NCBI RefSeq assembly: GCF_004348545.1
Contig: NZ_SMKL01000023.1
Coordinates: 1 to 64,000, forward strand
From: Jiangella ureilytica
Lineage (GTDB): Bacteria > Actinomycetota > Actinomycetes > Jiangellales > Jiangellaceae
DNA: 64,000 nucleotides
Direction of reading: 5' to 3'
Made by a program: the position numbers and the translations under genes. Under the pieces are notes generated by a model. It saw only the letters and a list, made by a program, of their open reading frames with translations, had not been told where the DNA came from and ran no database searches. Below are positions 34,106 to 34,842 of this stretch, in pieces. Numbering within the stretch: the stretch's first letter is position 1; each line of letters opens with the position of its first letter.

Positions 34106-34381
34106 CTACGCCGCGATCTCGTTCTTCCTGGGGCGTCCGCGCGGGCGCTTGCGCGCCACGACGGCTCCGGAGACGAAGAGCTCTCCGCCCCACACGCCCC
34201 AGGGCTCGGCCCGGTCCATCGCTCCCGCGAGGCACTGCGCCCGCACGGGGCACTCCTGGCAGAGCAGCTTGGCGTGTTCGACATCAGCCGGCGACTCGGC
34301 GAACCACAGCTCCGGGTCCCTCCGGCACGGAATGGACTCGTCGGCTGCTACGGCTCGGTCGAGAACGCTGGTCAGCATCAT
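34106..34381 (-). CDS. whiB7: WhiB7-type iron-sulfur transcription regulator
   Basis: This 91-residue 4Fe-4S WhiB protein activates intrinsic antibiotic-resistance genes together with the primary sigma factor. Four Cys ligands are visible (SIPCRRD, then LLCQECPVRAQC). The beta-turn GVWGGE follows, and then the AT-hook RPRGRPRKNE, which distinguishes WhiB7 from other WhiB proteins. The ATG at 34381 lies 11 bases after GGAGG; a GTG inside that ribosome site is less likely. It sits between uvrD2 and the ABC1 kinase block, as in mycobacteria. Upstream is a full attenuation leader. Confidence 0.95.
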   Translation of the reverse strand: MMLTSVLDRAVAADESIPCRRDPELWFAESPADVEHAKLLCQECPVRAQCLAGAMDRAEPWGVWGGELFVSGAVVARKRPRGRPRKNEIAA

Positions 34382-34440
34382 GAGTTCGGTCACCTCCCTT
34401 CCTTCCGAGTCGGTTCGGGCAGACACTGCCTGCCTGGGCA

Positions 34441-34480
34441 AACAAAAAGGCCGCGGATCCCGGTGTGGGGTCCGCGGCCT
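34441..34480 (-). terminator. Intrinsic terminator in the whiB7 leader (attenuator)
   Basis: On the minus strand, a 14-bp stem (34448-34461 with 34467-34480, core AGGCCGCGGA/TCCGCGGCCT) with a 5-base loop is followed by TTTTTGTTT. It stands about 60 bases before the whiB7 start and just after the uORF. Its 5' arm (GGACCCCA, 34466-34473) can pair instead with TGGGGTCC at the end of the uORF (34514-34521). Confidence 0.93.
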
Positions 34481-34503
34481 GGAAGGCGCCGGTCTTGTCA
34501 TGG

Positions 34504-34722
34504 CTAGACCGGTGGACCCCAGGTGCGGACGCGCACGCCGTTCTTGACCCCATCGACGAGGTGCGTCGTCGGGGCATCTGCCTGCGGACGCACTTCACCC
34601 GTCATCGGGGCGGTGACGGGCGCGACGGAACGCACCCGGGCGCTCTGGGAGACACCACGGAGGGCGCGCTCATACGCGAAGCCGACACCGCACGCAGACG
34701 GGTTCAGAGTCGTGATCTTCAT
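34504..34722 (-). CDS. whiB7 leader peptide / regulatory uORF (72 codons)
   Basis: This is an ORF of 72 codons beginning MKITTLNPSACGVGFAYE and ending VRTWGPPV, with a strong GGAGGGA ribosome site eight bases before the ATG. It ends with TAG 24 bases before the terminator hairpin. Its last codons (Trp-Gly-Pro, TGG GGT CCA) contain the antiterminator strand, so a ribosome reaching the stop would block antitermination. By analogy with the known uORF control of whiB7/wblC, it senses ribosome stalling by antibiotics. The peptide itself may have no function in trans. Confidence 0.85.
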   Translation of the reverse strand: MKITTLNPSACGVGFAYERALRGVSQSARVRSVAPVTAPMTGEVRPQADAPTTHLVDGVKNGVRVRTWGPPV

Positions 34723-34802
34723 CAGGCGCTTCCCTCCTTCCGTGTCAATCCCGAGCCGGTCTCTCCGGATCGTGGGCACCCTGCATTGCAAGGTGCTCGG
34801 TC

Positions 34803-34842
34803 ATGCTATTCCGGGCCCTGTGTAAGGGGCAACCTATTTTTA
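34803..34842 (-). promoter_or_regulatory. whiB7 promoter with AT-rich WhiB7 box
   Basis: Reading the minus strand: TAAAAATA (34835-34842), then -35 TTGCCC (34827-34832), an 18-base spacer, and -10 TAGCAT (34803-34808). An AT-rich box just upstream of the -35 is the known target of the WhiB7 AT-hook, so autoactivation is expected. The promoter begins three bases from the uvrD2 stop codon. Confidence 0.85.

Follow-up and report, generated by a model that had tools for sequence, protein, structure and literature searches.

Actinobacteria, mycobacteria among them, owe intrinsic resistance to many ribosome-targeting antibiotics to WhiB7. Its gene, whiB7 or wblC, is subject to attenuation in which translation of an upstream open reading frame (uORF) allows a Rho-independent terminator to form, and stalled ribosomes lead instead to an antiterminator made of overlapping uORF and terminator sequence (PMC11550727, PMC10727445, PMC13236596), early evidence for which is also available (PMC4128351). 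Because uORF attenuation of whiB7/wblC is already published, the type of circuit described below is known, as an earlier sequence-only reading of the locus had said (PMC10727445, PMC11550727).

The closest described systems are the whiB7/wblC attenuators of Mycobacterium and Streptomyces (Burian & Thompson 2018; Lee, Lee & Roe 2022, doi 10.1111/mmi.14834), which share with the present locus the uORF, the intrinsic terminator, an antiterminator of uORF and terminator sequence, a WhiB7-type promoter and the logic of induction (PMC10727445, PMC11550727, PMC13393426). The present species differs in not having been studied before, as far as we found, and a three-tier hairpin is here traced across the class. 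In the amino-acid leader-peptide attenuators (trp, his, ilvB; M. tuberculosis ilvB1, PMC13236596) the position of the ribosome on a leader ORF likewise chooses between antiterminator and terminator. By contrast, the whiB7 uORF is long and mostly permissive, its peptide has no run of regulatory codons for one amino acid and, unlike trp-type leaders, the untranslated whiB7 leader is not predicted to superattenuate. The erm-type translational attenuators also depend on a drug-stalled ribosome on a leader peptide, whereas the output of the whiB7 leader is transcription termination; the Shine-Dalgarno sequence of whiB7, at about 34398-34391, lies outside the switching hairpins, which stop at 34449 with the U-tract.

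We analyzed a 64,000-nucleotide stretch of Jiangella ureilytica DNA (contig NZ_SMKL01000023.1; hereafter the window), in which the following features were placed, all on the minus strand.

34803..34841, minus strand: WhiB7-type promoter, from sequence (AT-rich box AAAAAT 34841-34836, -35 TTGCCC 34832-34827, -10 TAGCAT 34808-34803)
34732..34739, minus strand: uORF Shine-Dalgarno AAGGAGGG, from sequence
34504..34722, minus strand: uORF of 72 codons, MKITTL...VRVRTWGPPV*, from sequence (ATG 34722, TAG 34506-34504)
34525..34530, minus strand: predicted antiterminator tier 1, 5' arm GUCCGC (folds, covariation, synonymous-codon test)
34517..34523, minus strand: predicted antiterminator tier 2, 5' arm CCUGGGG, codons Thr-Trp-Gly (folds, covariation, synonymous-codon test)
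34514..34521, minus strand: 8-nt segment TGGGGTCC (RNA UGGGGUCC), 5' arm of a predicted alternative, Jiangella-level helix (exact complement)
34489..34512, minus strand: stop-codon hairpin, the predicted antiterminator tip, CCGGUCU 34512-34506 / AGACCGG 34495-34489 (shuffles, compensatory changes)
34478..34484, minus strand: predicted antiterminator tier 2, 3' arm UUCCAGG, in the spacer and the terminator 5' arm foot (folds, covariation)
34470..34475, minus strand: predicted antiterminator tier 1, 3' arm GCGGAC, in the upper part of the terminator 5' arm (folds, covariation)
34466..34473, minus strand: GGACCCCA, 3' arm of the predicted alternative helix (sequence, folds)
34440..34480, minus strand: intrinsic terminator with a 10-bp stem and apical CCC:GGG, AGGCCGCGGA..TCCGCGGCC 34480-34449, then TTTTTGTTT (fold -26.8 kcal/mol)
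34106..34381, minus strand: whiB7, 91 aa, with four Cys, GVWGG and AT-hook RPRGRPRK (RGRP), ATG 34381 (sequence; Pfam Whib 4e-15)

The order AT-rich box, -35/-10, uORF, terminator and whiB7 had been given by the sequence-only reading with all its coordinates right. Judged by its sequence, the promoter is of the autoregulatory, AT-rich WhiB7 type, with an 18-nt spacer between -35 and -10 on the minus strand, and almost every Jiangellaceae leader retains the block AAAAAT.GGTTGCCCCTTAC about 114-128 nt 5' of the uORF ATG. Also nearly invariant in the family are the bases CCCCTTAC, which lie 3' of the -35 hexamer within 34841-34822 of the minus strand. Outside Jiangellaceae a strict form of the promoter pattern, too strict for use, was found in 8 of 101 leaders and in no shuffles, and a simple sigma-70 scan does not call the upstream promoter of the leader. 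A weak terminator-like site, near chance level, overlies the promoter on the plus strand (34815-34830). The gene downstream encodes a WhiB7 protein by its four Cys, GVWGG motif and AT-hook; its nearest named relative is that of Jiangella muralis (91%), it occurs at 86-96% identity in 11 genomes of the genus, and an NCBIfam scan gave no model matching it. A small hairpin, GGCAG-TGT-CTGCC (34430-34418, minus strand), lies between the terminator and the whiB7 Shine-Dalgarno sequence.

The uORF is led by a Shine-Dalgarno sequence, as in almost all related leaders, and a uORF (median 74 codons) is found in nearly all whiB7 leaders examined. Between it and whiB7, sequence and predicted fold identify an intrinsic terminator whose stem is near-invariant among 99 leaders. 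One could regard the uORF as a short protein gene with an ordinary terminator, unrelated to a whiB7 transcribed from its own promoter, and its good Shine-Dalgarno sequence and conserved start and end would suit such a gene. We consider this extremely improbable: most of 215 loci have both uORF and terminator together with whiB7, the WhiB7-type promoter box sits 5' of the uORF, peptides of different clades are dissimilar apart from their ends, and no promoter-like site was detected between terminator and whiB7, in a scan that also misses the upstream promoter.

The comparative set of whiB7 leaders was drawn from the Jiangella family, named genome contigs and a class-wide sample. A relaxed search found a terminator-like hairpin in 210 of the 215 loci, a few plainly wrong calls (e.g., L195 and L211) being set aside; 198 leaders, with 14-34 nt between uORF end and terminator, were usable, and 110 remained once redundancy over the final 48 nt had been removed. 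Pair probabilities were averaged over these 110 for RNA ending in the terminator loop, the terminator 3' arm being left out to reveal the alternative fold. The averaged map holds a single collinear ridge consisting of the stop hairpin (+2..-6 with -20..-12), tier 2 (-11..-17 with -8..-1) and tier 1 (-21..-30 with +2..+12); positions on the uORF side are counted from the first stop base, and those on the terminator side from CCGCGG of its 5' arm. On this sequence evidence, the conserved antiterminator is a predicted long imperfect hairpin centered on the uORF stop codon and made up of three collinear helices that share uORF and terminator sequence by computation. The same single long hairpin is predicted in other actinobacterial lineages, including those with CCACGG types of terminator foot.

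Covariation supports all three helices, the windows for which were picked after viewing the averaged map. Swapping partners between species among the 110 leaders gave z scores of -13.1 for the stop hairpin, -10.4 for tier 2 and -10.3 for tier 1, and upstream controls that kept these 3' arms gave about 0, which argues against relatedness as the cause. Among 99 leaders each helix lay above all shuffles in both covariation score and percentage paired; tier 2 slid by one column scored equally high on covariation, indicating variation in register. For 21 Jiangellaceae, pairing of the three-tier structure reaches 93.2% and there are 15 double-change cells; none of 500 shuffles scored as high. Compensated variants of tier 2 include CCTGGAG:CTCCAGG, CCTTGGAG:CTCCAAGG, CCTTTGAG:CTCAAAGG and CCTCGGGG:CCCCGAGG, as well as CCTCGAGG:CCTCGAGG, CCACGG:CCGTGG and CCACTG:CAGTGG. 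The CCGGTCT/AGACCGG hairpin noticed at the uORF stop by the earlier reading is indeed present, a 7-bp stem there arising by chance in 0.4% of shuffles, and it too changes in a compensatory manner, both in Jiangellaceae (to CCGATT/AATCGG) and across the class. With the full alignments, RNAalifold returned the terminator only (A1) or the terminator, stop hairpin, three pairs in the tier 2 region and a small local hairpin (A2); this mainly terminator and stop-hairpin outcome arises because the terminator outcompetes the antiterminator.

Codon choice in the uORF is also tuned to the pairing. Against synonymous recodings across leaders, the combined z was -12.2 for tier 2, -8.3 for tier 1 and -15.6 for both, the native tiers 1 and 2 together being stronger in 95%, compared with +3.7 for an upstream control; taken alone, the tier 1+2 segment of the J. 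ureilytica leader is not stronger than its recodings. Pro-Pro can slow ribosomes, and most uORFs end in W-[SGR]-P-P-V*, so that the conserved C-terminus (WSPPV*) might be read as an arrest peptide whose conservation, rather than any RNA pairing, explains the sequence. The tuning of synonymous positions speaks against this, as do the replacements of the Trp, which coincide exactly with changes of the terminator foot and preserve the pairing: the foot CTCAAAGG accompanies CCTTTGAG in a uORF ending PAFEDPL*, CCCCGAGG accompanies CCTCGGGG (SHPPRGNPPV*), and CCGTGG accompanies CCACGG (CPRSAPA*). An arrest peptide is accordingly a poor candidate as the source of the conservation, while a slow uORF end could still aid termination.

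The stop-codon-centered hairpin is not an Rfam family, and an Rfam scan of the leader gave no family match even at E 1. Against a model made from whiB7 leaders of actinobacteria, itself included, the leader scores 89.4 bits, and it is the only strong match in the genome. Across 22 related genomes strong matches fall at whiB7 and weak ones mostly on the opposite strand of the same palindromes. A weak, 36-bit match on both strands of a same-genus genome, away from whiB7 (G001:C3:752478-752551), is probably a GC-rich terminator palindrome.

The sequence-only reading had proposed a different pairing as the antiterminator, that of TGGGGTCC (34521-34514), in the last uORF codons, with GGACCCCA (34473-34466). 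The sequence bears out the exact complementarity, and an antiterminator of uORF and terminator sequence is the right class of mechanism, but this 8-bp helix is not the conserved antiterminator. When the final 36 nt of the uORF are compared with the 30-nt 5' region of the terminator, 4.5% of base shuffles and 28.5% of synonymous recodings hold an exact match of at least 8, so that the 8-mer is unremarkable by itself. The helix (-15..-8 with +4..+11) lies off the ridge, with nothing at its offset in the averaged map, and at that offset the 110 leaders show no covariation (swap z -0.3, pair counts equal to shuffles) and no codon tuning (+2.7 in the recoding test). Within 21 Jiangellaceae it is 85.7% paired, not clearly above shuffles. 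In the conserved structure these uORF codons are paired, in register, with the foot of the terminator arm and the bases immediately 5' of it (tier 2), and the upper terminator 5' arm is taken up by codons lying about 10 nt before those of tier 2 (tier 1).

Predicted alternative folds of the window leader also went against the proposed helix. By itself it is worth -15.3 kcal/mol, and it is near the lowest-energy fold in the brief state in which the RNA ends at GGACCCCA. After six more bases, before the terminator 3' arm is made, it is 5.8 kcal/mol worse than the three-tier hairpin (-38.4 vs. -44.2 kcal/mol), and tier 2 is able to form about a dozen bases sooner in transcription. The finished terminator state has -50.4 to -52.4 kcal/mol.

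To the ribosome we assigned RNA hidden to about 16 nt past the P-site and scanned its positions along the uORF. The three-tier hairpin is predicted for most stalls with an A-site codon of 60 or less, the 8-bp helix competing at a few; the latter dominates at codons 61-64, where tier 1 is occluded, and from codon 66 to the stop neither helix sequesters the terminator. The earlier statement that a ribosome at the stop covers the antiterminator 5' arm holds, and release of an antiterminator by a ribosome stalled earlier is predicted as well, except that the 8-bp helix wins only with stalls at codons 61-64. With the ribosome at codon 1 the untranslated leader is predicted to antiterminate. Across leaders, predicted antitermination drops sharply when the edge of the ribosome moves beyond about -24 nt, making about the last 13 codons non-permissive.

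The role of the 8-bp helix appears to vary between lineages. It is the predicted late-stall structure in the Jiangella clade L001-L015, and in two Jiangella relatives (L010 and L015) the prediction puts it ahead of the three-tier hairpin in free RNA as well, so that the dominant antiterminator may not be the same in every lineage. One of its pairs shows a G-C to A-U exchange in three relatives. In L016-L019 it is not the late-stall structure, tier 2 alone surviving, and in L016-L018 it is broken. Although its energy and its predicted success whenever tier 1 is hidden favor it, we think it unlikely that UGGGGUCC:GGACCCCA is the main antiterminator in J. ureilytica, given its later formation, its lack of covariation across the class or clearly within the family, and the frequency of such matches among recodings. 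The 8-bp helix is probably a secondary, genus-level alternative to the conserved stop-codon-centered antiterminator, and on the fold models it is a real alternative fold for most species of Jiangella and may serve as a late-stall backup.

At equilibrium the complete RNA prefers the terminator at every ribosome position (P at least 0.91), and for this reason antitermination would have to be kinetic. The same dominance of the terminator would be expected if there were no specific antiterminator at all and the ribosome acted only via coupling to RNA polymerase, weakening the terminator when translation lags. We judge this very improbable, as the antiterminator helices strongly covary and are codon-tuned, with no other visible purpose.

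From the sequence comparisons and fold models, with a probability of roughly 0.85, we propose that in the whiB7 attenuator of Jiangella species the position of the ribosome on the uORF selects between the terminator and the three-tier antiterminator, the 8-bp helix serving mainly for stalls at codons 61-64. For J. ureilytica we infer transcription, ribosome effects, kinetics and antibiotic induction as follows. RNA polymerase would start at the WhiB7-type promoter with a ribosome trailing on the 72-codon uORF. A ribosome reaching the stop codon would cover tier 2 and the stop hairpin and so block the antiterminator, whereupon the terminator would fold and transcription stop before whiB7. With ribosomes stalled or starved further upstream, or absent, the nascent RNA would form the long stop-codon hairpin (stop hairpin, tier 2 and tier 1), which would capture the terminator 5' arm before the 3' arm is made and let the polymerase continue into whiB7; the WhiB7 produced would then activate its own promoter. 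In most Jiangella species UGGGGUCC:GGACCCCA would be a mutually exclusive second antiterminator, used mainly at codons 61-64.

The uORF peptides carry a further feature. Upstream of the last 12 codons, Arg/Lys-X-Arg/Lys was observed 117 times against 66-68 expected, and other spacings of the two basic residues showed no excess. Controls gave 1.06-1.11-fold for a proteome set of 202 likely genes from the fetched loci and 1.07-1.18-fold for other frames. With one peptide per similarity cluster (115 clusters) there were 122 motifs against 71 (z 6.7), and the motif was present in 83% of independent peptides versus 45% in shuffles. Ketolides stall ribosomes predominantly at Arg/Lys-X-Arg/Lys, and macrolides more broadly, according to one report (PMC8298421). 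In the window uORF, RVR occurs inside the permissive zone at codons 29-31 and outside it at codons 64-66. Some Jiangella relatives have no upstream copy, so the enrichment is a tendency and not a rule. A literature search of open papers found no report of it in whiB7 uORFs.

A covariation-supported, base-pair model of the antiterminator names the bases to mutate for testing attenuation, predicts the last codon at which stalling would still give induction, and puts right a plausible but off-register pairing. At about even odds, we suggest that the whiB7 uORF is both a drug sensor and a translation-speed timer, its peptides across actinobacteria having been selected for the Arg/Lys-X-Arg/Lys macrolide-arrest motif where a stalled ribosome frees the antiterminator, and feeding one conserved stop-codon-centered hairpin. 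Such enrichment of a macrolide-arrest motif could explain the strong induction of whiB7 by macrolides.
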